64,000 nucleotides of DNA. It comes from Vitis vinifera (taxonomy: Eukaryota; Streptophyta; Magnoliopsida; Vitales; Vitaceae). Below the pieces are notes generated by a model. It was not told the origin of the DNA, did not search any database, and worked only from the letters and a program-made list of their open reading frames with translations. Below are positions 7,084 through 43,738 of the stretch, one piece after another. Every line of letters starts with the position of its first letter. The first letter of the stretch is position 1. The DNA lies in NCBI RefSeq assembly GCF_030704535.1, contig NC_081806.1, positions 6,201,501-6,265,500 on the forward strand, in the 5' to 3' direction. A program made the translations under genes and the position numbers.

Positions 7084-7212
7084 CCATTTCGGGAGTCATT
7101 TGAATCCAAATTGTTTAAACTGGTAGCTGGATCTCCTCCCAATATCCCATTGACTCTCCAATTCTGGGGCGAAGGCCGCCGTTTCTGTCTTCTCCAGTAA
7201 ACCCCTCTCTCC

Positions 7213-8799
7213 ATGCAGATTGGTGCTACGCTCCCGGCTCAGAACCTCCACCTCTTTCAGGCGAGGCGTGCCAGCTTTAAATGTAGTGGATCGCCTTTGA
7301 ACCCTTTAACCAAGCGTCCTCCTTCTGCAAAGCCTCTGCAAAGGGTCGCAAACATCGAAATGACTCGGCTTCACCTCTCCAACCTTGAAAAACTGCTTCA
7401 GAAGCAAGAACAGCCTCCTCTGTCCCAACCAGTTGAGAAAATTTCCAGTGATGGGTTGCCAGAGAACAAGGGAAGAGGTCTGTTAGAAGGCCTGAGCTTG
7501 GCCAGACTCTGGCCGGAGATGAAGGCGACAGAGGAAATGTCGCCGCGCCATATGAACCGCCTCCAGCGGCTTCTATCGAAATCGCAGGAGTATTCTCCAA
7601 GAAATACTCTCGGCGGGCGGTGGCGCGAGTACCATGGCAGCAAAGACTGGTCCGGCATGCTCGACCCTCTCGACGAGAATCTCCGGCGAGAGGTGGTGCG
7701 ATACGGCGAGTTCGTGCAAGCCGCGTACCATTCATTCCACTCCAACCCCGCCATGTCAGCGGAGGAACCTCCCCTTCCTCGCCATGTAACGCTTCCGGAT
7801 AGGGCCTATAGAGTAACGAAGAGCCTCTACGCCACTTCATCAGTAGGGTTGCCGGACTGGGTTGACGACGTGGCTCCCGATCTCGGGTGGATGACCCAGC
7901 GGTCGAGTTGGATGGGCTACGTGGCGGTCTGCGAGGACCGAAGGGAGATCGCAAGGATGGGGCGTAGAGACATAGTCATCGCCCTCCGTGGAACCGCCAC
8001 GTGTCTAGAATGGGCGGAGAACATGAGGGACTTACTGGTCCAAATCCCGGGTGAAGATGACTCAGTCCAGGGCCAGGGGCAACCCAAGGTGGAGTGCGGG
8101 TTCTTGAGCCTGTACAAGACTCGTGGAGCTCACGTGCCGAGCCTAGCAGAGTCCGTGGTCCAAGAGATACAGCGGCTGATGGAGGTATACAAGGGCGAGA
8201 CCCTCAGCATCACAGTGACCGGGCACAGCCTTGGTGCGGCCCTAGCCGTGTTAGTAGCCGACGAGTTGAGTACCTGTGACTTCGAGGTGCCCCCACTAGC
8301 GGTTTTCTCCTTTGGAGGGCCTCGAGTGGGCAACAGAGGCTTCGCCAATCGCATTAAACAAAACAACGTCAAAGTTCTACGTATAGTAAATTCTCAGGAC
8401 GTGATAACCAGAGTCCCAGGAATGTTTGTAAGTGAAGAACTTGACCAGAAGTTGAGAAACACAAAAATGGGCGGAGTCCTCAATGTGCTGGACAAGATGC
8501 CATGGGCATATTCGCACGTAGGGACAGAGCTCAGAGTGGATACCAAACAATCGCCTTATCTGAAGCCCAATGCCGACGTAGCATGTTGTCATGACTTGGA
8601 GGCCTACCTGCACTTAGTGGATGGATTCTTGGCTTCCAACAGTCCATTTAGAGCAAATGCGAAGAGGAGTTTACTAAAGCTGGTACACGAGCAGGGCTCT
8701 AATGTGAAAAAACTGTACACAAGGAAGGCCCCGGCCTTGAATTTGAATCTTGAAAGGGATAGAATGCCCATGTCTCCCTGTTTGCCCAGCCCATCCTGA
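7213..8799 (+). CDS. DALL1: Phospholipase A1-Ibeta/DAD1-like class I lipase, plastid-targeted, intronless
   Basis: A single open frame of 528 codons encodes an alpha/beta-hydrolase of the lipase class 3 fold. Visible catalytic elements are the nucleophile elbow GHSLG with Ser339, Asp396 in [11 protein letters not shown], and His460 in [11 protein letters not shown], the Ser-Asp-His triad of this family. The first ~120 residues lack domain signatures and are rich in Ser/Arg/Lys/Pro, as expected for a plastid transit region (inference). [18 protein letters not shown] at ~137 is the conserved start of the DAD1-like region. Family members remove the sn-1 acyl chain from galactolipids and phosphatidylcholine, releasing linolenic acid for jasmonate synthesis. 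The length agrees with PLA1-Ibeta/Igamma members (~510-530 aa). The specific symbol rests on gene order (next to RGG and DYW-PPR genes, as At4g16820 is in Arabidopsis, from memory); PLA1-Igamma is the alternative. An antisense frame over 7277-7954 is a composition shadow. Confidence 0.93.
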
Positions 8800-8957: not shown

Positions 8958-9700
8958 ACCTACTATTATTTGATATTTTTGCCTTGATTAGTGACCCCAT
9001 TTTTTACGGTTTACAATCAGACACGTAAAACATTTAATCGAGCCACCATGGGATTCATGTTGCAACTTGTACCTTTCCATTACTTTATCTGTGTTGACAC
9101 TGACTTTTAAATGGAGAAAAAGCACAAAATTTACTTTATTAAATGGGCCACCTAACCTAAGCAAACGTTATGGACCTGGTCTGTACTGATAAGGACACAT
9201 CTAATTGACCTTTCTCCCACCTTTGCCCATTGCCTTCTTTATGGCATTTCTTCCGGGAAACACAACACAAAGACCCGGTTAATGGTGGTTGCAAGAATTT
9301 GTCAAGTGTCAACCACCCTCAGCCACATCTGAGACAGGTGTTAAGAGATATTTGTGGTGGGTTGTCGCTTGGTCTAGGTTTTAATCATATTTGCTTTTAA
9401 TTTTTGGGAAAATGAGGTCAGTGCATAGCTCTCACCTTGTTTCGTATTCCAATTCTGCGTATCCTCGTTTCGCAATACACTTATCCAAATTGTTTAAAAT
9501 ATATTTAATATTAGTAAAGTAAATAGAAATTGAAACTTATAAATAAGATTGATTGAAATTCAAGTTTCATTCTGTCCTTAAAACAAGTTTGTCTCATTCA
9601 AGTATTTATGATTTAGATATTTATATTATGGTTTAGAATTTGCTTCATTCGAGCATTTATGATTAACAATAATTATCTTTTAAGATATAACAATCAATTT
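8958..9700. other. Intergenic, no gene recognised
   Basis: Moderately AT-rich sequence without recognisable coding potential or terminal repeats, lying between the lipase 3' end and the 148-bp tandem array. Confidence 0.4.
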
Positions 9701-10990
9701 TTTGGTGAAATGATTATGGAAATTGGGAATGACTTAAAAAAGAAGGCAAGGATGATAATTGGTGGATAGCATTGTTTGTGAAATACGTTATTTTTGTTAA
9801 CCATCATAAACGCACGAAATGGTTATTGGACTTGGGAATGACTTAAAAAAAAAAAGAGAATGATGATTAGTAGATGAGATGTGCCCCTGTGAAAAAGTTA
9901 TGGTATTTGAATGTCAAGTGTTTGTGGAAAACATTATTTTTTGTTAACCTTCATAAACGTACGAAATGGTTATTGGACTTGAGAATGACTTAAAAATAAA
10001 TAAGAGAATGGTGATTAGTGGATGAGATGTGTCCCTATGAAAAAGTTATGGTATTTGAATGTTAAGTGTTTGTGGAAAACATTATTTTTGGTTAACCTTC
10101 ATAAACGTCCGAAATGGTTATTGGACTTGAGAATGACTTAAAAAGAAATAAGAGAATGATGATTAGTGGATGAGATGTGCCCCTATGAAAAAGTTATGGT
10201 CTTTGAATGTCAAGTATTTGTGGAAAACATTATTTTTTGTTAACCTTCATAAACGTACGAAATAGTTATTGGACTTGAGAATGACTTAAAAATAAATAAG
10301 AGAATGATGATTAGTGGATGAGATGTGCCCCTATGAAAAAGTTATGGTCTTTGAATGTCAAGCGTTTGTGGAAAACATTATTTTTGGTTAACCTTCATAA
10401 ACATACGAAATGGTTATTGGACTTGGGAATGACTTAAAAAGAAATAAGAGAACGATGACTAGTGGATGAGATGTGCCCCTATGAAAAAGTTATGGTCTTT
10501 GAATGTCAAGGGTTTGTGGAAAACATTATTTTTGGTTAACCTTCATAAACATACGAAATGATTATTGGACTTGGGAATGACTTAAAAAGAAATAAGAGAA
10601 TGATGATTAGTGGATGAGATGTGCCCCTGTGAAAAAGTTATGGTCTTTGAATGTCAAGTGTTTGTGGAAAACATTATTTTTTGTTAACCTTCATAAACGT
10701 ACGGAATGGTTATTGGACTTGGGAATGACTTAAAAAGAAATAAGAGAATGATGCTTAGTAGATGCGATGTGCCCCTATGGAAAAGTTATAGAAATTGGGA
10801 ATGACTTGAAAAAAAAGGCAATAATAATAATTAGTGGATAAAATGTGATCTTTGAACGTAAGTGTTTGTGGAAAATATTATTTTTTGTTAACCTTCATAA
10901 ACGTACGAAATAGTTATTGGAATTATGAATGACTTAAAATAGAAAAAAAAGAAAATGATGATCGGTGGATGGGATGTGCCCCTTGCAAAA
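9700..10990 (+). repeat. 148-bp tandem repeat array, ~7-8 copies
   Basis: The marker CGAAATGGTTATTGGACTTG (and variants) starts at 9815, 9962, 10110, 10258, 10406, 10554, 10702 and 10906. The spacing is 147-148 bp except for the last interval (204 bp), which contains extra sequence. Each unit also carries GTGGATGAGATGTGCCCCTA, a GAAAAAGTTATGG segment, and TTAACCTTCATAAACG. Central copies are very alike and edge copies more diverged, the usual pattern of unequal exchange. No open frame persists through it. Confidence 0.9.
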
Positions 10991-12264
10991 AAGGGTATAT
11001 ATGGAATACACTATTTTTTTATTGTTGGGTTTTATAGTTAACCTCTCTAAACATATGGATCTAAATTAAGTTCAAATTCACATTCATCTACTTAAGCTTA
11101 CACTCATATGAACTACTATCTAAACCCACATTTTTTCTAAGCTTATGAAATGTTTATAAAATCCTTCAACCATTGATATTGAGATTTGAAATTACTTTCT
11201 TCAACCATATTTTTCTTAAATATACGAGTCATTTTGAGCTAAATCTCTTATTTGCCCATAAATAATTTTGAACATTTAAATATATTACAATCATCTACTC
11301 ATGGAGATAAAAATATTCTATTGTGATCCAACATAAAAGAAATTTTTGTGGGGTTTACTCAAATTTCAACTAGAAGGGAATCCTTTTCATTGTGACAGCA
11401 TTTGGATTCCTCAACTACTATTGCCAACCATTTTTTAATGTTAAATGCATCTAGAGTATTATTGCTCTCAATGATATGGGTTTCTTTTTTAACAAAGATT
11501 TGATATTTTCGTGTGTTTAAAAGCTCGATTATAATGCATTTGGATGAAATTTGTGAAGAAAATGATTGAAAATAGAAAAAATAATTTCGTTCAAATCTCA
11601 CGGGGTTTGGTATAAAAACATGTAATTATTATTGGTTTCAAATTTTATCGGTTAACATTCCTATAATTTTATTTTTATTTATAAAATTTATGTTTAACAA
11701 TTCTCTATAAATTTAAATTTATTCTCTAAAAAATAAATATTATATATAAAATATGTCTCAAAGCTACTAATCAATGAAATTTGAAATTAGTGATGGAACC
11801 TAAAAAAAATATAACATAAAAGTTAATGGTAAAAGTTTGTCTTATGTCTAGCTCTCCCTTGTTGGACAAGAAATTCCTTACCTCTTCACTTTTATTATTA
11901 TTATAATTGTTTGTTTATTGTTTTAAAACAACAATTTTCTTCCTAATATGTTTAGGCTTATGGAAGAGTTTGAGGCTTGGAGGAGAAGCAAGTGCAAGTA
12001 GAAGAGAAGGGGAAGGGTAAGGCCTGTTTGGTAATTATATTTTAAAATAGGTTTTTGTTTTTATAAAAAGAAAAAAATATGTTTGACAATTAGAAAATGA
12101 AAAACAATTTTCTATTAATAAAGACAGAAGTAGGGTATTTTAAATAATATCTTTTAATTGTTTTTTGAATGATATTTTAAAAAATGATTATATAAATATA
12201 AAAAATTGTTAAAAATAAAATATTACATATAAGAGCTATTTTTAAGACATGTTTAAAAATATAG
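10991..12264. other. Intergenic AT-rich DNA left of the retrotransposon
   Basis: No gene recognised. The last ~250 bp (from about 12020, GGCCTGTTTGGTAATTATAT) and the DNA right of the element (30980-31110) are AT-rich with runs such as AAAACAATTTT. They resemble AT-rich repeat sequence near 50940-51560, so the retrotransposon may have landed inside an older repeat. Confidence 0.4.
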
Positions 12265-12269
12265 AAATG
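12265..12269 (+). repeat. Target-site duplication, left copy (AGAAA)
   Basis: AGAAA directly precedes the left LTR edge and is repeated exactly at 30975-30979 after the right LTR. A 5-bp duplication is what LTR-retrotransposon integrases make, and it fixes both boundaries. Confidence 0.92.
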
Positions 12270-12363
12270 TGGACCCCGCATTTCGGCTCAATGCGTTTCC
12301 CACTCGATGGCGAGCTCGATTTTAATTTGAAAAATTGATCTTTATTGATTAAGAAAAATTGAT

Positions 12364-12378
12364 TTGGAGTCGCCACTT
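12364..12378 (-). other. Copy of the primer-binding-site core inside the LTR
   Basis: The minus-strand sequence GTGGCGACTCCAA overlaps the first ~10 bases of the element's own primer site (TGGCGACTCCACTGGGA). It lies about 100 bp inside the LTR edge next to the internal primer site. The same match occurs in the right LTR near 27157-27171. This may be ordinary sequence similarity or a trace of past priming slippage. Confidence 0.5.
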
Positions 12379-13179
12379 ATTTTTGTTTTATTTTTAAAGG
12401 GTAAACAAAATAAGAAAGAAAAACCCTAAGGGTGACTCCTTGTTTTGGAAAAGGTGGTCTGTGAAAAACCGGATCGGGTTCGGGGGTCAGGTTACTCATC
12501 GGGAAGGTACGGTAAAGACCGTAGCACCCCTCTAAGCCCCTAGAGGCGGGTCTCTACTAATAAAATGAAGCAATCATGGCAGTGGACGAGTAGATCAATG
12601 AGTACCCAGAATAAATCATGCACACGTGAGAATCAAAATATGCTTGGACAATTACCAGAGTGAAAGTAGGTGCGTACCTGGGCGACGAGCCACCATGCGC
12701 CATCAAGAGAGAGGTTAGTGCGCAATTAAGAAATAATAGCATGCATGTCGGAGAGCAGGATAAATAAATCGCACGTGACAAACAAAACAATCAATCATAA
12801 AATCACGTATGTGGGGCCCCCACCAAAGCCCGATTGGTCTTGCACGAATTAATCTCACAAATTCCATTTGTTCTGAAATTATGAAAATGACATTCATGCT
12901 TATATAAAGTTAAGAGAAAAATAAGATTATTTGAAAACCAAAGTGGAATTAAAACTATTTGAGAGAAAGTTGGATTTTTGAAATTTATTCGAAAATTGGA
13001 ATATTGAGAATTAAATTTAAGAGTTGGAATTTTAGGATGTCAAACTTGAAAGAAATTAGAATTTTAGAAATCGGAAATTAAGTTCAGAAATTGGGATTAA
13101 AAAAAAAATGTTTAAAAAATGGGATTTTGAAATAAATAAATGGAATAATAATAATAAGGACGAAAATAATGATTAAATA

Positions 13180-14600
13180 AATGAATGAGAATGCTGGAAT
13201 TTTTGAATTTGGAAATTAGATTTAGAAGTCAGAAATTTTAAAGAATTGTTTAAGATAGAATTTTAAGATAAATAAACAAACTATTAGTGATTAATTTAAT
13301 GTGAATATGGGAATTTTCAGGATTAGGAATTTAATTCGTAAATCTGAAGTTTTAAAGAATTGATTTAAATGGAGATAAAATACTAATGATTAAATAAATT
13401 AATGAGAATATGAGAATTTTCGGGATTAGGAATTTAATTCGGAAATCAGAAGTTTTAGAGAATTTGATTTAAAATAGAGTTTTGAAATAAGTAAATAAAA
13501 TACTAATGATTAAATAAATTAATGGGAATATGGGAATTTTCGGGTTTAGGAATTTAATTCGGAAATCAGCGGTTTTAAAGAATTTGGTTTTGAAATAAAT
13601 AAACAAATGAAATACTAATGATCAAATAATTTAATGGGAATATGGGAATTTAATTCGGAAATCAGAAGTTTTAAAGAATTTTGATTTAAAATGGAGTTTT
13701 GAAACAAATAAATAAAATACTAATGATTAAATAAATTAATGGGAAGATGGGAATTTTTGGGACTAGGAATTTAATTCGAAAATCAGAAGTTTTAGAGAAT
13801 TTGATTTAAAATGGAGTTTTGAAATAAATAATTAAAATAATAATAATTAAATATATTAATGTGATTTGGAATTAGAAATTAAATTTGAAAGTCGGAAATT
13901 TTAATGAATTGTTTAAAATTGAATTTTAGAATAAACAAATGAAATAATAATAATAATGAAAATAATAAGGATTAAATAAATAAATATGGAAATTGGAATT
14001 CCAGAAATTAGGAAATTGAGTTATGGGATTTTGAGGAATTGCTTGAGGATAGAATTTTAAATAAATAAATAAATAGTAATAATAATAATAATAACAAAAA
14101 TAATGGTTGAATAAATACGTATGGAAATTAGAATTCCGGAAGTTAGGAAATTGAGTTTGGAAATCGGGATTTTGAGGAATTGCTTGATGATAGAATTTCA
14201 AATAAATAAATAAAATAAGGATGATTTAAATAAATTGATGCGAGAATTTAAAATTTCGGGAAGTGGAATTTAAATTTAGAAATTAGAATTTTGAAAGATT
14301 ATTTTAAAGATTGAATTAGGAGGATTATTTAAAAAAATGTAAGTTTTAAATTTAAACAAATAAATAAATGGATAAGGTGATAACGATTAAATAAATTGAT
14401 ATGAAAATTGGAATTTCGAAAATTGGAATTAAATTTAAAATCGGAATTTTGAAGAATTGTTTAAAGATGAAATTTTTAAGAATAAATAAATGAATAAATA
14501 AAAATAAAAATAATAAAAACGAAAATGATAATTAAATAATGAATGCGAATATTGGGATTTTTTTAAATTGGAACTTCAATTATGAAAATTGTTTAAAAGA
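13180..14600 (+). repeat. Degenerate ~120-130 bp tandem repeats within the LTR
   Basis: Successive units share TTAGGAATTTAATTCGGAAA, TCAGAAGTTTTA(A/G)AGAATTT, GGAGTTTTGAAATAAATAAA and ACTAATGATTAAATAAATTA. The best-conserved units lie around 13310-13860 and more diverged ones continue on both sides. The same array is present in the right LTR (about 27973-29393). Strongly AT-rich and noncoding; antisense frames here are Tyr/Asn/Phe-rich low complexity. Confidence 0.7.
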
Positions 14601-15275
14601 TGGAATTTAAAAATAAATAAATAAATAAAATTTGAGAATGGAATTTAAAAATAAATAAATGGATAAAATAAAAACAATAACAATAACAATAGTAATAATT
14701 ACAATAATAATGGTAATTAAACAAATAAATGTGGAAGTTGAATTTTGGGAATGAAATGAAAATTGAGATTTTGAAAATTAGATTTAGAATTGAGATTTTC
14801 GGTTGGATATTACAATATGGAGACATAAGTAATAATATTAAAATATAAGTTGTGGCTTTGTTATTAGGAGTGGTTAGATGGCAAAGAAAAGAAAATCACC
14901 CGGGACCACCATATATTTAAGAGACTTGGGAGCAAAACATGTGGTCCCCACATATTAAATAGGTTTGGGAGCAAAACATGGCTGCATGCATAAGAGAGAG
15001 GATGGAAGGATAGTTGAGTGGGAGAAAAGTCAAGGAAAAATGTGGGTATTACGCATGAGAGAGAATGAAGACGTTTAAGTGTTAAAAGAAAAAAAAACGC
15101 CCTGGTGACAATGTAAAGGACAACTTCTTCTCTTTCTTCAACCTTTCTACCTCAAGCCTTGCCTCTGCAACACTGTCTCACATCCCATCTGTAGCATACA
15201 AGTTTGATAATAATACATAAGGAGAAGTAGTCACAGGCTGAAGTTTTAGAAGCCATTTAGCCATGATAGCTTCAC

Positions 15276-15446
15276 CATGAGTAACAGTCATCAGGAGGCT
15301 TCCCTGGTAGACCATTTAGTCCTCCAGATTGGACTTGTCGTTCACATAACCCCCACCCAAAGAGGTCCTCATCAACATGATGCAGAGAACCCGTCAAAGC
15401 AAGAACACCAACCTGACAGAATATTTGCCCTGCATGGGATTCAGTA
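15276..15446 (-). pseudogene. Captured exon of Rab geranylgeranyl transferase beta subunit (left LTR copy)
   Basis: The minus-strand frame reads [20 protein letters not shown], continues [16 protein letters not shown] and GGLNGLPGK, and ends CYSW. These are the hallmark strings of the plant RabGGTase beta subunit (prenyltransferase alpha-toroid repeats). The piece is about 171 nt, has no stop or frameshift, and is bounded by CTAG before (15447-15450) and GTGAAG after (15270-15275), which look like a splice acceptor and donor. Beyond them the frame soon ends (stop overlapping the last Trp codon) and the sequence looks intronic. So this is one genomic exon with intron flanks, not a spliced-mRNA copy. 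Substitutions against family residues remembered (for example GWW to GWG) suggest an old capture. It cannot make a working enzyme alone. Confidence 0.85.
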
Positions 15447-16107
15447 CTAGCAACATATAACCTATTCACCACTGAATATATATCCTCTGTAACTCTTTGC
15501 TCCCATGGACGGAAATAGGAGTAATGATGCACTCCATGACTAGATACCCGAAACAGGGGAAGATGGAAAAGAAAAACAGAGCACAACGTGTAGGAGTAAA
15601 AGAAACCCATACAAGCCTCATTTCATATAACGATCAATGAGCTCATACGAGGGTGGATGAAATCAAATGAGCACCAAATAAAAGGTAAAACAGAGGTACA
15701 AAACATCTCATGCAGAAATCAGAACAGGGCAAACTAAACTTCAGCAAAGACCCATTAGCAAAATATGAACGTACTCACTCCCAAGCAACAAATATCATCT
15801 GAGCATCAACAAAAAAAAAGATAACAGAAAAGCATGAAGAATGAAAATATACGTGAAAAACATGGTAACCAAACCTGAAAATCCCTCCCTCAGCTGGGCG
15901 TTTTTAGGCTGCAACCCTCAGAAGAACGGGCTCCTCCCGCAACTCCCTTTCCTGACCCTCCTTTTCTTTCCTCTGTTTGTGTCTTCCTCAGCAAGCCATC
16001 CTCGGCTGCTGCTACACGTCCCATCTGGTCGCCCCGAGAGTAGCCCACCATCAGTCCCCTTCAGCCGCCTGAAAGCAGCCCACTTGAGAGGTCCCCTGAA
16101 AAGCAGC

Positions 16108-16132
16108 AAAAAAAAAAAAAAAAAAAAAAAAA
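16108..16132 (+). repeat. Poly(A) run in left LTR
   Basis: Twenty-five A residues, against 27 in the right LTR (30901-30927). This slippage tract accounts for one of the two length differences between the LTRs. Confidence 0.9.
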
Positions 16133-16183
16133 TGATAATAAAAAGAAAAAAACTCCCCAGCTCCTCGGGGGGGTCTACAAATA

Positions 16184-16195
16184 TGCCCCTCTTTG
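16184..16195 (-). other. Candidate polypurine tract
   Basis: On the minus strand AAAGAGGGGCAT lies a few bases before the LTR that is 3' in element sense (TGTAGACC...). A purine-rich tract there primes plus-strand DNA synthesis in LTR retrotransposons. Position and composition fit; it is short. Confidence 0.6.
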
Positions 16196-21457: not shown

Positions 21458-21622
21458 TCAAACATAGTACCTCTTTAGCTGATCCACATTGGTTGGCTCT
21501 GAGAATCGGTTTCCGTCTAAATCCATCAGCCATGCAGCGCCTTCTGGGGTCAGCTCCCTGATGAAATAAGGTCCGCTCCAGTTGGGTCTGAACTTCCCTC
21601 TAGGATCATGTATCAATCGTAC
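21458..21622 (-). pseudogene. Remnant of integrase C-terminus with GPY/F motif (end of pol)
   Basis: The minus-strand frame, open from 21622 with two stops just upstream, reads RLIHDPRGKFRPNW, then SGPYFIRELTPEGAAW, and ends NVDQLKRYYV with a stop at 21458-21460. GKFRPNWxGPYFI is the GPY/F module at the integrase C-terminus of Ty3/gypsy elements, and RELTPEGAAW...LKRYYV is the typical polyprotein end in Tat-type elements (recalled family pattern). About 54 codons survive. It shows that the element descends from an autonomous one whose pol was almost wholly deleted. Confidence 0.8.
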
Positions 21623-22375: not shown

Positions 22376-23038
22376 TCAATCGCCCAAGTCAATAAGATCA
22401 GGGACTGCTGGTGAAGGAGCGTCTGCATGCATGGCCTGAGCTGAGATAGGAATAGGAAACATATCAAACTGAGGATGCCCAAATGTCCCAGAATCAACAA
22501 TGTCCTGTATGGCATGTCGTAGAGCAGTGCAACGATCAGTGTGATGTCCTGCTGACTGGTGGTACGCACAATATAAATCAAGCCGAAACTGTGGAGGCAT
22601 AGGATCTGGAAGTGCCCTAGGAGCCAGAGGAGCCAAAAATCCCATGGCCTGCAACGTCTCAAAAACCTTGCTCAGGGGTGCGCCCAAATCTAAGAAGTGT
22701 CTCTGACATCGTCGACGAGGGTGAAGTCGCTCATGAGGAACTGTGATAACTGGAGGGCCTTGAAACTGGGGCGGAGGTCGTGCCAACGTAGCCAATGAAA
22801 TGGATGAGGAATGCTACTGGAGTAATAAATGCGGGCGAGGTCGTGGATGCGAGGCACCCAAAGTAACAGGTGTCGGTGAAGTCAAGTGTGGCAATGAAGG
22901 CATCGCTACTCCTGGAGCTCCTCTCGATGACGATGGATGCTCTGACAAAATAAGCTCAATCCTCTCAACCCTCCGTGTCAAATCCACCATCATCTCGTAA
23001 AGAGTAGTGAGAGTAATGGGTGTGATCTCGTCCGACAT
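22376..23038 (-). pseudogene. Second gag-like frame, internally deleted, with in-frame amber stop
   Basis: From ATG at 23038 the frame starts MSDEITPITL and includes LYEMMVDLTRRVERIE, then meets TAG at 22814-22816. The same frame continues after the stop into PPPQFQGPP, LGAPLSKVFETLQAMG and the knuckle CAYHQSAGHHTDRC, ending at 22376. The part after the stop parallels the C-terminal third of the main gag (LGMPLDRAFERLRATG, CAYHQMAGHRTDYC), while the central retrotransposon gag domain is missing. It is therefore a second, partial gag copy downstream of the first. The TAG could be a disabling mutation or a programmed readthrough; the sequence does not decide. Confidence 0.7.
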
Positions 23039-23464
23039 GGTGAACCTCAACTGAAGAAGTCTAATCTCAATGTACTCTGAAAATATCATAACCATCATGC
23101 CATCAATCTCTGCCCGGGGACCAGTCACAATACTAAAACTGTCCAAGACTCTAAAACGAACACATGCAAGAGACAAAACAAACCAACACACGATGCTATA
23201 CAAGATAACAACACATAAAATGCATGATACGAAACAATGATAATAATAAAAAGAAGACAGAAACACATACCCAAGAAAACAACAATATCACTAAGTGAAA
23301 TGAGAGTACATCATGCGAAAAATAGGACAATAAGGACTGCTCTCGAAACACAAGGTACGAACACGAATCACTAACTATAAAACAAGACCCAAATACAAAG
23401 CAAAAGGGAACAAAAACTCAAACAACCAACTAACAAGGTAGTCCCAAAATACACCAACAAGGTA

Positions 23465-24904
23465 TCAAAGTGTCCTGTGAATATCAGTGCCCTGGGTGTC
23501 CAAAACGTGATGGTATAAACCCGAAGGAGGAGGAACCGCATGTGTGGAATAAACCAGAAAGGAATCAGCAGTCATATCTGGACCAAGATCAGTGTCTGTG
23601 GTCGATATGGGAAGGCTAACTGCACCACTGTCAATGAGATCCTGTATGGTATGACGCAGAGAAGCACAATAATCAGTACGGTGGCCTGCCATCTGGTGAT
23701 ATGCGCAGAACTCATGAGCGCGAAAACGCGGAGGTAAAGTACTCGGGGGTGGCCTAGGGGCCAATGGTACTAAAAACCCAGTAGCTCTGAGTCGCTCAAA
23801 AGCTCTATCCAAAGGCATCCCCAAATCAGAATAAGTCCTCTGACGTCGCCGATGGGGGCGAGACTGCTCATACCGTGGGATACTAGTCTGCGGACGCTGA
23901 AACTGGAATGAAGGTCGTACTGTGACAGTATGAGGATGCACAGAAGGGTACTGCTGAACTAAATGAGGATGACGATGCTGTAAAGGTGGGAAATCACTCC
24001 TAGGTATCTGCAATGATCTCGCATAGGGATGATAACCAGGTCGTCGATGCTGAAAGTCTGCAGAACATACGCCTCCATAGCTCTCAGATGATCCACCAAC
24101 TCCCTTCCCCTCAGTATCCGGAGAAGGAATAATATCTGACCATAATCCTCTAGAGATGCCATCATCTACATCGAACAAAGCCTGAACCAATGATCTGAAA
24201 TCCTGGAATGGGACTCCTGTCAGATGCCGAGCAAACCTAGGGTGCAAACTCCTCAAAAACATGCTCATCTGATCTCCCTCGGTAGGTCGCTCAATCATCT
24301 CCGCAGCCTTCTCCCTCCAGCGGGAGATAAACGAAGAAACAGGCTCATCTGACCCCTGTCTAAGCAACTCAAGCTCTCTACGTGTAGCGCTCGTATCACC
24401 ACTGAAGGAATACTGTCTCAGAAACTCCTGTGCTAAGCCCTCCCAAGTTCTCCGACGAGATGTCTCTAATGAAGCGTACCATCTCTGCGTCATGCCGTTC
24501 AATGACAATGGGAACAAAGTGAGCAACTGTGCCTCATCTAGACCAAGAGCTCTCATAACTGTGCTATAAAGTCTGAGATGAATACGAGGACATCCAAAAC
24601 CCGTGTATCTCTCCATATCAGGCATCCTGAAACCGACTGGCAAAGTGGCCACTGGCACATCGTCAGGGTCATCCCATGAAATCATCTCATCAAGATCTCT
24701 CATCTGTCTAACCCTCCGCTCGAGTATGTCCATACGGGAATGAGGATCCTCATTAATGGTAACTGGTGTGACAATGGGTGGAATGACAGTAGCCTGATCA
24801 CGTGAAGTCTGTGTAGCTGGCATCTGAACAGGTAGAACAGGTGGTGTCACTATATCAGATGGCGTGTCCTTGAGCACTACATGCCTACTTTGCAGAGTAT
24901 CCAT
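23465..24904 (-). CDS. Retrotransposon Gag polyprotein, Tat/Ogre-like
   Basis: An intact 479-codon frame. Residues ~105-230 form the retrotransposon gag (capsid-like) domain, with GFGCPRIHLRLYSTVM, FPLSLNGMTQRWYASL, TWEGLAQEFLRQY and FISRWREKAAEMI. A basic, Pro/His-rich linker follows, then the knuckle CAYHQMAGHRTDYC (Cys400, His403, His408, Cys413), a CX2HX4HX4C variant of the classical CCHC box, and the helix LRHTIQDLIDSG. Gag packages element RNA into particles. The frame ends without fusing to protease. An intact gag in an element without pol suggests either recent descent or retained function, as in gag-only elements that use a relative's enzymes (inference). Confidence 0.85.
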   Translation of the reverse strand: MDTLQSRHVVLKDTPSDIVTPPVLPVQMPATQTSRDQATVIPPIVTPVTINEDPHSRMDILERRVRQMRDLDEMISWDDPDDVPVATLPVGFRMPDMERYTGFGCPRIHLRLYSTVMRALGLDEAQLLTLFPLSLNGMTQRWYASLETSRRRTWEGLAQEFLRQYSFSGDTSATRRELELLRQGSDEPVSSFISRWREKAAEMIERPTEGDQMSMFLRSLHPRFARHLTGVPFQDFRSLVQALFDVDDGISRGLWSDIIPSPDTEGKGVGGSSESYGGVCSADFQHRRPGYHPYARSLQIPRSDFPPLQHRHPHLVQQYPSVHPHTVTVRPSFQFQRPQTSIPRYEQSRPHRRRQRTYSDLGMPLDRAFERLRATGFLVPLAPRPPPSTLPPRFRAHEFCAYHQMAGHRTDYCASLRHTIQDLIDSGAVSLPISTTDTDLGPDMTADSFLVYSTHAVPPPSGLYHHVLDTQGTDIHRTL

Positions 24905-27040
24905 CCTCTAACTCAAACTGGTCAATGCCCCCTGAATCGAAACCACATAAGCGATAAGCTAACCAAACGAAACTGACTATGAATCTGCCTATAGCAGCTC
25001 AGAGATACGAATCAACCTCCATCCCACTCTACCTAGGGCACTGAACCAAGACTGGGACTACAAATAGACCCCTACAAAAGAACCCAAACAAAACGACTCA
25101 AACACGACTCATGCAACGGCACGGGACGCAACGTACAATGACCAACGCATGATACAACACAACCCAATACATGACAGGGTGTGATACACAATCATATGGT
25201 GACAATCAAATTTTGGATATACGATAGAATCTCTAGAGTCATAGGAGTGTCCAACATGAGATGACTACAAATATGACTAAAAAATTTCTATCGATGGTCC
25301 AGAAAATAATCGAGGTGTGAAGAAAATGAATGGGATGTGAATAACAACACTATCACGAGATCAATACTCAGTCTAGACCAAAAATATCCTTGATTCAACC
25401 TTCAACTCGAGCTCCATAAGAGACAAAATGATAAGGTGATCAAGGCGAATCTCTCGAAAAATGTGTGAATATGAAAATATGCCTTTCACCTTTCTGTAAT
25501 GAAAATGTGAGCATTGAGTCGAAAATCGAACCAAAGATCAAACAAAGAATATGGTACTGAGCTCATGATAGGTATACAGTGTAAAAAGATGATCAATAAA
25601 CATATCCCAAAGTATCGAGTGAGTGACAACAAAGTGAAGGAGTGTGTCGAGCCAAGAAATGAGAACGAAAACCCTAGGGAGAAAACATGCTAAACTCATC
25701 AAGTAAAAAACATAATCTAGAGCGACGAGACGAAAAGGTGATCCAATCGATACTCAAACTCATACTGATCTCCGAGCACTCTCAACTGGAGACTAAAAAG
25801 AGGGAATGTCAAATCCGAAGTGTAACCACAGAGGCTCTGAAAGCCCTCAGATGCACCCACGTGTAGGGAGGGAGTCCTAATCGAAGGATCTACGGCTCAA
25901 ACTACAAGGTGAAGGTGGCTCTAAATGGATATGGGTGGACTTTAGAGGATCCCTAGCAGAAGCGATCATACCCTCCGGCGGTACGCAACCCTCTGCACGC
26001 CTCCGAAGAGACGGGGTGCTTCCATGCAAGGTGGTCATCACCTCCACACATGCACTACCTCGCATCCCAGGGGGCTCCTACAGTGAAAGCTCTCACACTC
26101 TCAACACTCAATAGTCAACTAAAGTGCACAGTGAGCGGTGTGGGTGCATCCGAAAACCCTAAGAATCTAGAGCAGAAGAGGAAACACACTGGTCGCACGA
26201 CTATCCATGAAACCTAGCTCGAGGCTATACAGGTCTTCAATGATCGGACTCCAATCGTCATCAAAGTGTCGCTCTCCTCTAGAATGCTCCCGTGCATCGA
26301 TATAGCCTGTCGCTAGACCCTACTCCTAATCTCTGGCTCGGTCAAAAAGCAAGCACACAGAAGGTCTCACACTTGCAATAGTGAGAACTGAGATGAAATG
26401 AATGACCGAAACCAAGAGAGTTGGAGGTAGGGGGATAGAAGTGAGACTCACATAGACAAACGACATGCAATCATGCAGAGGGAGGCAATCATGCAACATG
26501 CAGTCAGACAGAGTACAGGATATATCACTCATGCACACAAACTATGACGATCAAGACGAATAGTGATACGAACATCATGCTCAAAAGGCGATCAAGACAA
26601 TATACAAGCCAGAGAATCAACACATCAAGTCAAATGATATATACCAGTGAATCCATGCATGTGAGATGAACAGAACAATCATGGCAAAATCAGAATGACT
26701 ATGCTAAGCAGGGCAAGATGATCGATCAATATAATCAGCATGTCAATGTACTCAACAAACATGGCAATGAAGCACAGAAAAATCAAAATCCTCAATCAAG
26801 ATAATCGATCACATAATCAGCATGTCAAATATCTCATACAAATATATCAATGAGGCATGAAGAAACTGGCTATATCATAATCCCCAATCAAAATAATTGA
26901 CCAACATGATCAACATGTCAATGTCCCAAGTGAAAGCTCGGGAACTCTCAATGTGCAATCAAAAGATGAGTACCCACTGATCGACTCACCAAACGCCACG
27001 TTTGCTTCACTTTAAGTTCAAGCTTGACCCTCTAAAAGAT
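24905..27040. other. Retrotransposon leader between primer site and gag
   Basis: About 2.1 kb, noncoding as far as can be seen. Ogre elements carry an extra ORF before gag; nothing longer than about 70 codons is open here on the minus strand, so no such ORF is intact. CATGTCAA and AATCAGCATGTCAA-type short repeats occur at 26740-26920. Confidence 0.5.
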
Positions 27041-27057
27041 TCCCAGTGGAGTCGCCA
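27041..27057 (-). other. Primer-binding site, tRNA-Arg-like
   Basis: On the minus strand TGGCGACTCCACTGGGA starts three bases inside the element from the LTR edge at 27061. It would pair with a tRNA 3' end of the form TCCCAGTGGAGTCGCCA. From memory this matches a plant tRNA-Arg, the primer reported for Ogre-type elements. The TGG start and the position are clear; the tRNA identity is recalled, not searched. Confidence 0.75.
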
Positions 27058-27060
27058 TTT

Positions 27061-30000
27061 TGTGGACCCCGCATTTCGGCTCAATGCGTTTCCCACTCGA
27101 TGGCGAGCTCGATTTTAATTTGAAAAATTGATCTTTATTGATTAAGAAAAATTGATTTGGAGTCGCCACTTATTTTTGTTTTATTTTTAAAGGGTAAACA
27201 AAATAAGAAAGAAAAACCCTAAGGGTGACTCCTTGTTTTGGAAAAGGTGGTCTGTGAAAAACCGGATCGGGTTCGGGGGTCAGGTTACTCATCGGGAAGG
27301 TACGGTAAAGACCGTAGCACCCCTCTAAGCCCCTAGAGGCGGGTCTCTACTAATAAAATGAAGCAATCATGGCAGTGGACGAGTAGATCAATGAGTACCC
27401 AGAATAAATCATGCACACGTGAGAATCAAAATATGCTTGGACAATTACCAGAGTGAAAGTAGGTGCGTACCTGGGCGACGAGCCACCATGCGCCATCAAG
27501 AGAGAGGTTAGTGCGCAATTAAGAAATAATAGCATGCATGTCGGAGAGCAGGATAAATAAATCGCACGTGACAAACAAAACAATCAATCATAAAATCACG
27601 TATGTGGGGCCCCCACCAAAGCCCGATTGGTCTTGCACGAATTAATCTCACAAATTCCATTTGTTCTGAAATTATGAAAATGACATTCATGCTTATATAA
27701 AGTTAAGAGAAAAATAAGATTATTTGAAAACCAAAGTGGAATTAAAACTATTTGAGAGAAAGTTGGATTTTTGAAATTTATTCGAAAATTGGAATATTGA
27801 GAATTAAATTTAAGAGTTGGAATTTTAGGATGTCAAACTTGAAAGAAATTAGAATTTTAGAAATCGGAAATTAAGTTCAGAAATTGGGATTAAAAAAAAA
27901 ATGTTTAAAAAATGGGATTTTGAAATAAATAAATGGAATAATAATAATAAGGACGAAAATAATGATTAAATAAATGAATGAGAATGCTGGAATTTTTGAA
28001 TTTGGAAATTAGATTTAGAAGTCAGAAATTTTAAAGAATTGTTTAAGATAGAATTTTAAGATAAATAAACAAACTATTAGTGATTAATTTAATGTGAATA
28101 TGGGAATTTTCAGGATTAGGAATTTAATTCGTAAATCTGAAGTTTTAAAGAATTGATTTAAATGGAGATAAAATACTAATGATTAAATAAATTAATGAGA
28201 ATATGAGAATTTTCGGGATTAGGAATTTAATTCGGAAATCAGAAGTTTTAGAGAATTTGATTTAAAATAGAGTTTTGAAATAAGTAAATAAAATACTAAT
28301 GATTAAATAAATTAATGGGAATATGGGAATTTTCGGGTTTAGGAATTTAATTCGGAAATCAGCGGTTTTAAAGAATTTGGTTTTGAAATAAATAAACAAA
28401 TGAAATACTAATGATCAAATAATTTAATGGGAATATGGGAATTTAATTCGGAAATCAGAAGTTTTAAAGAATTTTGATTTAAAATGGAGTTTTGAAACAA
28501 ATAAATAAAATACTAATGATTAAATAAATTAATGGGAAGATGGGAATTTTTGGGACTAGGAATTTAATTCGAAAATCAGAAGTTTTAGAGAATTTGATTT
28601 AAAATGGAGTTTTGAAATAAATAATTAAAATAATAATAATTAAATATATTAATGTGATTTGGAATTAGAAATTAAATTTGAAAGTCGGAAATTTTAATGA
28701 ATTGTTTAAAATTGAATTTTAGAATAAACAAATGAAATAATAATAATAATGAAAATAATAAGGATTAAATAAATAAATATGGAAATTGGAATTCCAGAAA
28801 TTAGGAAATTGAGTTATGGGATTTTGAGGAATTGCTTGAGGATAGAATTTTAAATAAATAAATAAATAGTAATAATAATAATAATAACAAAAATAATGGT
28901 TGAATAAATACGTATGGAAATTAGAATTCCGGAAGTTAGGAAATTGAGTTTGGAAATCGGGATTTTGAGGAATTGCTTGATGATAGAATTTCAAATAAAT
29001 AAATAAAATAAGGATGATTTAAATAAATTGATGCGAGAATTTAAAATTTCGGGAAGTGGAATTTAAATTTAGAAATTAGAATTTTGAAAGATTATTTTAA
29101 AGATTGAATTAGGAGGATTATTTAAAAAAATGTAAGTTTTAAATTTAAACAAATAAATAAATGGATAAGGTGATAACGATTAAATAAATTGATATGAAAA
29201 TTGGAATTTCGAAAATTGGAATTAAATTTAAAATCGGAATTTTGAAGAATTGTTTAAAGATGAAAGTTTTAAGAATAAATAAATGAATAAATAAAAATAA
29301 AAATAATAAAAACGAAAATGATAATTAAATAATGAATGCGAATATTGGGATTTTTTTAAATTGGAACTTCAATTATGAAAATTGTTTAAAAGATGGAATT
29401 TAAAAATAAATAAATAAATAAAATTTGAGAATGGAATTTAAAAATAAATAAATGGATAAAATAAAAACAATAACAATAACAATAGTAATAATTACAATAA
29501 TAATGGTAATTAAACAAATAAATGTGGAAGTTGAATTTTGGGAATGAAATGAAAATTGAGATTTTGAAAATTAGATTTAGAATTGAGATTTTCGGTTGGA
29601 TATTACAATATGGAGACATAAGTAATAATATTAAAATATAAGTTGTGGCTTTGTTATTAGGAGTGGTTAGATGGCAAAGAAAAGAAAATCACCCGGGACC
29701 ACCATATATTTAAGAGACTTGGGAGCAAAACATGTGGTCCCCACATATTAAATAGGTTTGGGAGCAAAACATGGCTGCATGCATAAGAGAGAGGATGGAA
29801 GGATAGTTGAGTGGGAGAAAAGTCAAGGAAAAATGTGGGTATTACGCATGAGAGAGAATGAAGACGTTTAAGTGTTAAAAGAAAAAAAAACGCCCTGGTG
29901 ACAATGCAAAGGACAACTTCTTCTCTTTCTTCAACCTTTCTACCTCAAGCCTTGCCTCTGCAACACTGTCTCACATCCCATCTGTAGCATACAAGTTTGA

Positions 30001-30896
30001 TAATAATACATAAGGAGAAGTAGTCACAGGCTGAAGTTTTAGAAGCCATTTAGCCATGATAGCTTCACCATGAGTAACAGTCATCAGGAGGCTTCCCTGG
30101 TAGACCATTTAGTCCTCCAGATTGGACTTGTCGTTCACATAACCCCCACCCAAAGAGGTCCTCATCAACATGATGCAGAGAACCCGTCAAAGCAAGAACA
30201 CCAACCTGACAGAATATTTGCCCTGCATGGGATTCAGTACTAGCAACATATAACCTATTCACCACTGAATATATATCCTCTGTAACTCTTTGCTCCCATG
30301 GACGGAAATAGGAGTAATGATGCACTCCATGACTAGATACCCGAAACAGGGGAAGATGGAAAAGAAAAACAGAGCACAACGTGTAGGAGTAAAAGAAACC
30401 CATACAAGCCTCATTTCATATAACGATCAATGAGCTCATACGAGGGTGGATGAAATCAAATGAGCACCAAATAAAAGGTAAAACAGAGGTACAAAACATC
30501 TCATGCAGAAATCAGAACAGGGCAAACTAAACTTCAGCAAAGACCCATTAGCAAAATATGAACGTACTCACTCCCAAGCAACAAATATCATCTGAGCATC
30601 AACAAAAAAAAAGATAACAGAAAAGCATGAAGAATGAAAATATACGTGAAAAACATGGTAACCAAACCTGAAAATCCCTCCCTCAGCTGGGCGTTTTTAG
30701 GCTGCAACCCTCAGAAGAACGGGCTCCTCCCGCAACTCCCTTTCCTGACCCTCCTTTTCTTTCCTCTGTTTGTGTCTTCCTCAGCAAGCCATCCTCGGCT
30801 GCTGCTACACGTCCCATCTGGTCGCCCCGAGAGTAGCCCACCATCAGTCCCCTTCAGCCGCCTGAAAGCAGCCCACTTGAGAGGTCCCCTGAAAAG

Positions 30897-30927
<31 letters not shown>

Positions 30928-30974
30928 TGATAATAAAAAGAAAAAAACTCCCCAGCTCCTCGGGGGGGTCTACA
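27061..30974 (-). repeat. Right LTR (5' LTR in element sense), 3914 bp
   Basis: The direct repeat of 12270-16179, with boundaries TGTGGACC...GGTCTACA. In element sense this is the promoter-bearing LTR. It has TTTCCC where the left copy has a shorter C run near 12300, G at 29266, C at 29907 and A27 at 30901-30927. All internal features are repeated at an offset of 14793 bp, so no large gain or loss separates the two LTRs. Confidence 0.93.
30069..30239 (-). pseudogene. Captured exon of Rab geranylgeranyl transferase beta subunit (right LTR copy)
   Basis: The second copy of the host-derived exon (ESHAGQIF...GSLHHVDED...LCERQ...CYSW) at the position matching 15276-15446, identical by eye. Because it sits in the LTR that drives transcription, the element's own transcripts may run through it in the same sense as the host exon. 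Confidence 0.85.
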
Positions 30975-30979
30975 AGAAA
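30975..30979 (+). repeat. Target-site duplication, right copy (AGAAA)
   Basis: Exact match to 12265-12269, directly after the LTR end CTACA. Confidence 0.92.
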
Positions 30980-40285: not shown

Positions 40286-40395
40286 GATACTTTCTAAACA
40301 CTTTTAATTATAATAACAAATGCTTCAGTTAAAAGTATTTAATAGTACTTTTTTGGGTACTTACCAAAAAATCACCATCAATCAAGTGCAACAAA

Positions 40396-41495
40396 CCTTG
40401 ACTTTTGGAAGGGATGCATTTATTAGATGAAAGGTTGATGCACCCGTTGCTCTGATGATTCATGATAACTTGACAGATTGTATAGCGGTCGTGTCGATGA
40501 CGCATCATTCAAATTTTTGCCCTATCAACTTTCGATGGTAGGATAGGAGCCTACTATGATATTGACAATTGATAGAAAATTAGGGTTCGATTTTGAAGAG
40601 GGAGCTTGAGAAACGGCTACCACATCGAAAGAAAGTAGCAAGTGCGCAACCCACTTATTTATTTTCCAGTTTCATTATTTTTACCCGAGTTCTATTATTT
40701 ATACTTTTATACCTTGATCTTGTTCGTTTGTACCCTTAACTTAAATTTAAATTAACCTTGACTTTTCGAAGGGATGCATTTATTAGATAAAAGGTCGATG
40801 CAGGATTTGCCCATTGCTCTGATGATTCATGATAACTTGACAGATTGTATAGTCGTCGTGCCGATGACGCATCATTCAAAATTTTGCCCTATCAACTTTT
40901 GATGGTAGGATAGAGGCCTACTATGATATTGAGTTATTAACAGTTGATAGAGAATTAGGGTTCGATTTTGCAGAGGGAGCTTGAGAAACGGCTACCACAT
41001 CGAAAGAAAGTAGCAGGTGCGCAAACCACTTATTTATTTTCCAGTTTTATTATTTTTACCCGAGTCCTATTTTTATACTTTTATACCTTGATTTTGTTCG
41101 TTTGTACCATTAACTTAAATTTAAATTAACCTTGACTTTTGGAATGGATGCATTTATTAGATAAAAGGTCGATGCAGGATTTGCTCGTTGCTCTGATGAT
41201 TTATGATAACTTGACAGATTATACCGTCATCATGTTGATGACGCATCATTCAAAATTTTGTCCTATCAACTTTCGATGGTAGAATAGGAGTCTACTATGA
41301 TGTTGATAGTTGATAGAGAATTAGGGTTCAATTTCAGAGAGGAAGCCTGAGAAACGGCTACCACATCAAAAGAAGGTAGCAGGTGCACAAACCACTTATT
41401 TATTTTCTAGTTTCATTATTTTTACCTGAGTCCTATTTATTTATACTTTTATACCTTGGTATCGTTTATTTGTACCCCTAACTTAAATTTAAATT
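40396..41495 (+). repeat. Three tandem copies of a ~360-374 bp unit
   Basis: Units start with CCTTGACTTTT at 40396, 40756 and 41130. Each contains GATGCATTTATTAGAT, TGATAACTTGACAGATT, ATGACGCATCATTCAAA, GAAACGGCTACCACATC and a T-rich tail ending ACTTAAATTTAAATT. They differ by scattered substitutions and small indels, so the triplication is not recent. No shared open frame. It directly follows the copia relic and may derive from it. Confidence 0.85.
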
Positions 41496-41743
41496 TTTAT
41501 TTTTAAGTCTTATTATTTGTACTTTAATTCTGTTAATTTATATCTTATACCTTATTCTTATTTGTTTATACTGTTAATGACTTTGGTAGGTACAAATACA
41601 CTACCTTAGCATTTCTAATAACAAAACTATAACATCACTCAATCATTTTTTAGTGAATGCATAGGATTTTTGGGTATTCATGATTAGCGGCCAAACAATT
41701 ATAAAAACCCAAGGTCTCTTCCTTTTCCACCATACCATGACTG

Positions 41744-43738
41744 ATGCTTTGTCTTCGGAACCCTGGAAACCAACCTTTCTTGCTCTTCCTTGCAATTTTC
41801 TCGCAGTCCAAACACCAAAACCGTTCTCTCTCTTTCTTCGCTATCCAAAACCCACATGTCAACCCAAACAGAGAACCATTTCTTCCCCATCCTCTGCCAA
41901 AACCGGATTCAATTCCCTCTACACCGTTTGGTCAACAGAAATCCAGTAACGTGATTTCATCAAATAGAGTGATCACCAACCACATTCGATCCGGGGATTT
42001 GAATTCTGCTCTGAGAGTTTTCGAGAGCATGACCGTTAAGACAACCGTTACATGGAATTCAATGTTGGCTGGGTATTCAAACAGGCGAGGGAAAATTAAA
42101 GTAGCTCGCCAACTGTTTGATAGAATTCCAGAACCAGACATTTTCTCATACAATATCATGTTAGCTTGTTATTTACACAACGCGGATGTAGAATCCGCAA
42201 GGCTTTTCTTTGATCAAATGCCAGTTAAGGACACGGCATCCTGGAACACCATGATATCGGGTTTTTCACAGAATGGTATGATGGACCAAGCACGCGAGTT
42301 ATTTTTGGTAATGCCAGTGAGAAATAGTGTTTCTTGGAATGCCATGATATCGGGTTATGTTGAGTCAGGGGATCTGGATTTGGCAAAACAACTGTTTGAG
42401 GTAGCTCCGGTGAGGAGTGTGGTCGCATGGACTGCAATGATTACTGGATTTATGAAGTTTGGAAAGATTGAATTGGCAGAAAAATATTTCGAGGAGATGC
42501 CCATGAAAAATTTGGTGACATGGAATGCTATGATTGCAGGCTACATTGAGAATTGTCAAGCGGAAAATGGCTTGAAGCTTTTCAAACGGATGGTGGAATC
42601 TGGGTTTAGGCCAAATCCATCGAGCTTGAGCAGTGTTCTACTGGGTTGTAGTAATTTATCTGCATTGAAGTTGGGCAAACAGGTTCACCAGCTCATATGT
42701 AAATCTCCAGTCTCGTGGAACATAACTGCAGGGACTTCATTGCTTAGCATGTATTGTAAGTGCGGAGATTTAGAGGATGCATGGAAATTGTTTCTTGTGA
42801 TGCCGCAAAAAGATGTTGTAACCTGGAATGCAATGATTTCTGGTTATGCTCAACATGGGGCAGGTGAAAAGGCTCTTTATTTGTTTGATAAGATGAGAGA
42901 TGAGGGGATGAAACCAGATTGGATCACTTTTGTTGCAGTTTTATCAGCCTGCAACCATGCAGGATTTGTAGATCTTGGTATTGAGTATTTCAATTCAATG
43001 GTGAGGGATTATGGAGTTGAAGCTAAGCCAGACCACTATACCTGTGTGGTTGACCTCCTTGGTCGAGGTGGGAAGCTAGTTGAAGCTGTAGATTTGATAA
43101 AGAAAATGCCTTTTAAACCACATTCTGCCATATTTGGAACCCTTTTGGGTGCCTGTAGGATCCACAAGAACTTGGAGCTTGCTGAGTTTGCTGCCAAGAA
43201 TTTGCTGAATCTTGATCCGGAGAGTGCAGCTGGTTACGTTCAACTTGCTAATGTTTATGCAGCAATGAACAGATGGGACCATGTTGCTATGGTTCGGCGA
43301 TCAATGAAGGACAACAAGGTGATTAAAACACCTGGGTATAGTTGGATTGAGGTAAAGAGCGTGGTTCATGAGTTCAGATCAGGTGATAGGATTCACCCAG
43401 AATTGGATTTTATACATGAGAAACTAAATGAATTGGAGAGGAAGATGAGATTGGCAGGGTATGTTCCAGATCTTGAATATGCATTGCATGATGTGGGTGA
43501 AGAGCAGAAAAAACAGATACTGTTGAGGCACAGTGAGAAACTGGCAATCGCTTATGGGCTAATCCGAATGCCTTTAGGGACTCCAATTCGGGTGTTCAAG
43601 AACTTGAGAGTATGTGGAGATTGCCACTCTGCAACAAAGTACATATCAGCGATTGAAGGGAGGGTAATCATAGTGAGAGATACTACAAGGTTTCATCATT
43701 TCAGGCAGGGGGAGTGCTCTTGTGGTGATTACTGGTAG
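41744..43738 (+). CDS. DYW-type pentatricopeptide repeat protein (PLS class), probable organellar RNA editing factor
   Basis: A single intronless frame of 664 codons. After a Phe/Ser/Pro-rich N-terminus of ~70 residues, possibly an organelle transit peptide, come about ten PPR motifs, mostly S-type ([27 protein letters not shown]), then longer units with [19 protein letters not shown] and [18 protein letters not shown]. The E/E+ region runs from ~490 to 570 ([25 protein letters not shown]). The DYW domain ends the protein with HSE (His596, Glu598), CGDC (Cys624, Cys627), HH at 651-652, CSC (658, 660) and terminal GDYW. HxE plus CxxC is the zinc-binding deaminase signature, so the protein is a candidate C-to-U editing enzyme in mitochondria or plastids. 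It corresponds by position and type to Arabidopsis At4g16835 (from memory). A Met seven bases upstream is out of frame. Confidence 0.93.

Follow-up and report, generated by a model that had tools for sequence, protein, structure and literature searches.

An intronless RGTB fragment in the long terminal repeats of a grapevine retrotransposon, one of many host gene pieces carried by related LTRs

The long terminal repeats (LTRs) of a retrotransposon in a 64,000-nucleotide stretch of Vitis vinifera DNA (referred to here as the window) carry a piece of the host gene for the beta subunit of Rab geranylgeranyl transferase (RabGGTase-beta, RGTB) that was derived from spliced mRNA, and this finding is one example of a wider, family-wide phenomenon. 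As a probable explanation, we favour that these LTRs contain a variable cassette, of which the RGTB piece is one component, assembled by repeated template switching to host mRNAs during reverse transcription.

The element contains a 3' LTR at 12268..16179 (minus strand, 3912 bp; minus-strand reading TGTAGACCCCC...GGGGTCCACA) and a near-identical 5' LTR at 27061..30974 (minus), and the two differ at 2 positions and by a 2-nt poly-T indel. The target site duplication AGAAA is found at 12263..12267 on the left and at 30975..30979 on the right. A putative primer binding site (PBS), TGGCGACTCCACTGGGAA, was read from the sequence just inside the 5' LTR (27040..27057, minus), where the PBS-like TGGCGACTCCACTGGG adjoins the right LTR on its interior side; a polypurine tract (PPT), AAAGAGGGGCATATT, was read next to the 3' LTR (16180..16194, minus), and GAGGGGCATATT is also found directly before the LTRs of the related loci L016, L039, L040 and L043. 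The positions of PPT and PBS put the element on the minus strand. The paired TG..CA-type repeats, the 5-bp target duplication, the PBS-like site and the PPT are those of an LTR retrotransposon. The interior encodes a gag ORF of 480 aa (23468..24907, minus; PF03732, 1.9e-11) with Vitis relatives that are 90% identical at full length or 94% identical over 76% of the length (best 120 of 450 matches), V. riparia, V. piasezkii and V. rotundifolia being included among the matches listed. The reverse transcriptase, RNase H and integrase domains of an autonomous Ty3/gypsy element were absent from 36 of the 51 minus-strand internal pieces of at least 50 aa, in which only gag was detected, and the further internal pieces that were pooled into a control scan likewise gave gag and no pol domain. 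To judge from these features, the window element is a young, gag-only Ty3/gypsy-type element without detectable pol. TR-GAG and LARD are classes of non-autonomous LTR elements, and TR-GAG elements carry a gag ORF and no pol, the arrangement found here between the LTRs. By these definitions the window element resembles both classes in being large, with gag and no detectable pol; it differs in having host cargo in its LTRs, which is unmentioned in the titles and abstract openings of the TR-GAG and LARD papers. With no reverse transcriptase found, its possible membership of the Ogre/Tat lineage is a guess from the PBS and the long LTRs. By eye only, an integrase-C-like piece was seen at 21461-21622, and the region 22379-23287 (minus, downstream of gag) resembles a second, broken gag C-terminal part.

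The RGTB piece occupies 15264..15446 (minus) in the 3' LTR and, as the same sequence, 30057..30239 (minus) in the 5' LTR; 15276-15446 and 30069-30239 are exactly identical, in agreement with the initial annotation, which had described the piece as doubled at insertion. That annotation was also right in placing the RGTB sequence inside an LTR, as two LTRs with the AGAAA duplication were delimited around the pieces, and in giving it the same sense as the element, since the element lies on the minus strand. The reading frame is open as it had reported, but the frame runs one base away from 15276-15446, i.e., at 15275-15445 (minus) and at 30068-30238 in the other LTR. The host identity of the encoded peptide is borne out by RGTB chains in the PDB (E = 4.7e-22), by Pfam family PF00432 (3e-13) and by plant RGTB proteins (E-values down to 3.9e-26 among the best 120 of 121 matches). 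Compared with exon 6 of the RGTB gene on contig C12, the window piece shows 88% identity.

The genome searched (495.6 Mb, 21 contigs) has two RGTB genes, on C12 and C15, each with an intron after ESHAGQ (~2 kb on C15) and a second intron after ..LPD (~115 bp on C15). The LTR copy contains two exon-exon junctions and no introns; it is contiguous at both intron positions, where it reads GGGCAAATATTCTGT and CCTGATGACTGTTAC. Because the two gene introns are missing, spliced mRNA and not a genomic exon was the source. The proposal that genomic DNA including intron edges had been taken must therefore be given up: the AG and GT dinucleotides are present near the edges of the fragment, but they are not intron edges, since the gene introns lie inside it. 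The expected match to RGTB genes in the same genome was obtained, and with two real genes, so the objection that only other copies of the same repeat would match does not hold. Spliced origin was compared with donor genes for RGTB alone, and the donor of the PPR piece described below is a single ORF.

A plant RGTB protein searched against the genome gave 40 rows, 16 of which are the two genes and 24 of which fall at 22 other places (two places listed twice). Seventeen of these 22 were examined, leaving out C16:5937258, C12:22625313, C18:36659615, C18:18871243 and C2:20458498. A retained intron was found in none of the 17, and 15 are intronless across at least one gene intron position; in the other two (L036 and L037) the BLAST alignment comprises exon 6 only, so that no intron position is covered. 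An LTR context was recognized for 16 of the 17 (C16:6556592 being the remaining one), on weaker grounds for L036 (96% identity to L037) and for C16:2121339 (a 5'-terminus-like motif only). The captured RGTB segments differ, i.e., aa 1/3-112, 108-174 and 148-253, and the copies L033 and L034 (aa 1/3-112) are contiguous across two introns. At one codon of the C-terminal RGTB core, the copies have CAG/CGG/CAA in common in place of the TGT found in both genes, which suggests that this core is probably of single origin.

The RGTB piece is directly followed by a piece of a second host gene, a PPR (E-motif) gene, at 15157..15263 (minus) in the 3' LTR and at 29950..30056 (minus) in the 5' LTR (offset 14793). 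Its E motif matches PF20431 at 3.5e-5, below the family's own cut-off. The donor is an intact 592-aa single ORF on C11 (L023, at 16.9 Mb), to which the piece shows 2 mismatches in 107 nt by a by-eye count in the alignment and 94.3% identity over 123 nt by BLAST; the two mismatches point to a capture probably far later than that of RGTB. The DYW-type PPR gene within the window itself (41741-43735) was rejected as donor (45.7% aa identity over 35 aa). The change from RGTB to PPR falls inside TGGCTRAATGGYTT, which occurs both in the PPR donor gene and in L011, an LTR that bears RGTB. At the other border, an 11-nt overlap, TATATGTTGCT (15449..15459, minus), occurs in the L016 LTR scaffold as well as in the LTRs L009-L011, and is likely the switch point from the scaffold to the RGTB part. 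The scaffold segment (15449..15921, minus) is 96.6% identical to L016 and is shared with related LTRs that have no RGTB, and the window LTR resembles the product of recombination between an L016-like scaffold and an L011-like LTR. A reading of the upstream piece as a PPR E+ motif was rejected, as the piece belongs to the LTR scaffold and also occurs in LTRs that have no RGTB; its counterpart in L021 gave no Pfam match. The same C11 PPR gene has contributed different pieces to three repeat families: the LTR of L028 contains 492 nt from a different part of the gene (95% identity), and the repeats L024-L027 contain a third part. L024-L027 and a further 80-164 matches make up a separate repeat family, in which the PPR-gene piece is fused, by reading, to an LRR-type coding piece; some copies occur in same-strand pairs 15-22 kb apart, so these repeats may represent an additional gene-capturing LTR family.

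Related LTRs are numerous. Their 19-base terminus, TGTAGACCCCCATTTGGGG, occurs 173 times in the genome (83 plus, 90 minus; reversed control 0), not counting the window LTR, whose own terminus TGTAGACCCCCCCGA is a variant, nor L003 and L004, whose termini are likewise outside the 173. Twelve same-strand pairs of the 19-mer lie 11-20 kb apart among 100 of the 173 places listed (contigs C1-C12), and three LTR pairs chosen by this spacing show 99.96, 99.08 and 99.6% identity between their LTRs, all with host-like pieces. RGTB is also present in putative solo LTRs on C14 (4876 bp, duplication CCCCA, together with an RPN6-like piece), on C2 (4223 bp, duplication CTATG, together with PPDK, PDB E = 1.1e-49) and on C6 (6.1 kb, duplication ATGAT). 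Further 5-bp target duplications at related LTRs are ACGAT, CTATT and CGAAC. L021 and L022 are solo LTRs of 2.6-2.8 kb that share the scaffold, and in L021 the ten longest pieces in sense gave no Pfam match. For L016-L019 and L028 the 5' terminus was found in loci without a 3' end, and the myosin head piece of L013 (1.5e-21) lies upstream of RGTB in a part of the locus without an LTR start. Other pieces, which showed no family match, we take from their translations to be HSP90-like, HD-ZIP III-like, RPN6-like, CHD-like and AHL-like.

To survey host cargo, 12 LTRs not chosen for content were used (the three spacing-chosen pairs and nine LTRs at every tenth entry, 1, 11, ... 81), with the longest 150 of 307 sense pieces and the longest 150 of 240 antisense pieces compared with Pfam at E <= 0.001. 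Fifteen families were found in sense and six in antisense, and the sense bias of host pieces is therefore real but not absolute. The sense families are aminotransferase I/II, NOT1 (DUF3819), AMP deaminase, Clp protease, DUF1005, AIM24, glycosyltransferase 20, metallophosphoesterase, glycosyl hydrolase 14, HSP70, two PPR models, ATP synthase, biotin carboxylase and a viral p31 model (BNYVV_p31, probably a chance match); the antisense families are SEO_C, three HMG models, a copia-type reverse transcriptase, which is the strongest antisense match, and a USP7 domain. Among the captures are ATP synthase beta (2.8e-38) and aspartate/prephenate aminotransferase (1.5e-25). A host family was tied to its own LTR by a computed match in 6 of the 12 (L038, L040, L045, L048, L051 and L052) and by reading in L042 (AIM24) and L044 (HMG antisense, copia-like sense), whereby the LTR end was located only in L042 and L047 and pieces in the other loci may lie past it. 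No host piece was seen in L047 and L049 of the 12, and L046 and L050 are without clear host assignment. An earlier set of related LTRs had given nine host gene kinds (RGTB included) in 96 sense pieces, hand-picked from 193, versus none in 96 antisense pieces, the longest of 181, and four of its nine loci had been fetched for holding RGTB. As a control, 45 kb of window sequence free of the LTRs and of obvious genes (longest 150 of 256 pieces, both strands pooled) gave Ras/Roc and Stm1, which presumably belong to resident genes, gag, and two weak families; the Sigma_reg_N and DUF6886 matches in it are probably due to chance. In L051 (1259-1591) the ATP synthase beta piece joins residues ~69-138 to ~258-319 (the second stretch in other chains), i.e., it reads as an internal jump within one mRNA. 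By reading, the sense strand of the L044 LTR region contains copia-type gag and RNase H-like pieces, and its antisense strand an HMG-box gene.

In the mechanism that we propose, host mRNAs, spliced beforehand, would be co-packaged with element RNA, and the reverse transcriptase would jump, where short sequences match, from the LTR-encoding RNA of the element onto a host mRNA and later return. Because a single copy serves to regenerate both LTRs in reverse transcription, the foreign piece would appear in both and be amplified by every new insertion, and later jumps would shuffle, trim and add pieces. The spliced source of RGTB, the sense bias, the fused fragments of unrelated genes, the overlaps at both switch points of the window, the identical cargo of the two LTRs and its persistence in solo LTRs agree with this mechanism. 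The antisense host pieces (SEO_C, HMG box, USP7-like) count against this mechanism, because minus-strand jumping alone does not predict them; some may be nested DNA insertions. It is unlikely, in our judgement, that the pieces are instead LINE-made processed pseudogenes copied into LTRs by gene conversion or as end-joining filler and then amplified by retrotransposition. Grape is unusually rich in processed pseudogenes (ratio of non-processed to processed ~2 versus ~10 in the other plants surveyed), an excess tentatively tied to L1 LINEs in the accessible part of the report (PMC7935947); processed pseudogenes recombined into LTRs could yield identical sequences, a few antisense pieces do exist, and introns are absent from 15 of the 17 RGTB places examined, with the other two covering one exon only. 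The sense bias speaks against such an origin, as do the fusion of pieces of unrelated genes in the same LTR part, the overlaps at the window's two switch points, and the borders of the window's RGTB and PPR pieces, where the RGTB piece runs straight into PPR and scaffold sequence and where, by reading, neither a poly-A tail nor a target duplication of the pieces' own is present.

Template switching might also have been confined largely to the elements themselves, with a few ancient mRNA captures passed between LTR subfamilies when co-packaged element RNAs recombined. The probable single origin of the C-terminal RGTB core and the recombinant look of the window LTR agree with this; we nevertheless consider it quite improbable as the whole explanation, since the differing RGTB segments, the three pieces of one PPR gene and the unequal divergence of the RGTB and PPR pieces from their donors all need several captures, and additional genes occur in the LTRs that were not selected for content. 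Pack-MULEs and Helitrons typically contain multi-gene chimeras, and insertion of such an element with gene fragments into an ancestral LTR was also considered; it is very improbable, as RGTB is intronless and the whole is bounded by LTR ends with 5-bp duplications, and a Pack-MULE origin was rejected because L009 1301-3400 has no inverted repeats of at least 14 nt and the duplications at the LTR ends are of 5 bp versus the 9 bp of a Pack-MULE. Capture of one genomic RGTB exon with its intron edges, suggested by the AG and GT near the fragment edges, is scarcely conceivable and was rejected, as the fragment covers portions of three exons and lacks the two introns between them. A stronger form of the template-switching proposal is a tentative possibility only: the LTR may have a dedicated hypervariable acceptor slot for the systematic sampling of host mRNAs, and the LTRs would then amount to a library of host cDNAs, mostly in sense, that moves and copies itself. 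If so, the leader sequence would be constantly refreshed, perhaps escaping small-RNA silencing, and the element RNA could target the donor genes or be spliced into them.

Retrotransposons are known to capture genes; maize Bs1 is reportedly a plant LTR retrotransposon that captured gene fragments. A maize genome survey counted 425 intact LTR elements bearing gene fragments and, in the accessible part of the report, no element whose fragments came from two or more standard nuclear genes (PMC2774510); 20 LTR elements with gene fragments were described in a 22-Mb maize region (PMC2773423, in part), and rice and sorghum were surveyed for such capture as well (PMC3726574, in part). The elements in those plants, like the ones here, carry and amplify host gene pieces, whereas the window LTR has two donors, a difference drawn from the available portions of the maize survey. 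The cargo here lies inside the LTR itself; the accessible parts of those surveys do not state its position within the element. Template switching into LTR elements is documented for Veju and BARE-2 (review, PMC13317346): as proposed here, foreign sequence enters by reverse transcriptase jumping between co-packaged RNAs, but the inserts, so far as the accessible sections describe them, are other retrotransposon or unknown DNA in place of a changing set of host mRNAs. The chimeric retropseudogenes made by LINEs in Magnaporthe through double template jumps (PMC2104539, in part) also fuse cDNAs of unrelated transcripts; they are LINE products without LTRs and so would lack the doubling and re-amplification that LTRs provide. 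The term 'gene fragment' is absent from the accessible text of a grapevine study of TE transcription (PMC9097378). Our literature search, which drew mostly on journals outside subscription, yielded no account of LTRs with multi-gene cassettes of host mRNA.

Cargo placed in an LTR is doubled per insertion and left behind even in solo LTRs. LTR cassettes might be a competing, testable source for the grapevine processed-pseudogene excess, notably in introns and UTRs (PMC7935947, accessible part), and they may form a natural record of mRNAs that enter retrotransposon particles. The captured pieces also pollute gene annotation. For example, the V. vinifera protein P0054 (207 aa, named RGTB) is 96% identical over 46 residues to the window frame, and its gene model joins a nodulin-like N-terminus (PF06813) to two short pieces matching elsewhere in the window LTR; such an LTR has therefore entered public annotation.

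Other features of the window include a class 3 lipase ORF (7201-8796) and an FAD-binding (squalene epoxidase-like) exon (60727-61512), both probably of resident genes, seven tandem copies with 148-bp spacing (9697-10884), and tandem repeats of ~370 bp (40331-41437) just upstream of the DYW-type PPR gene.
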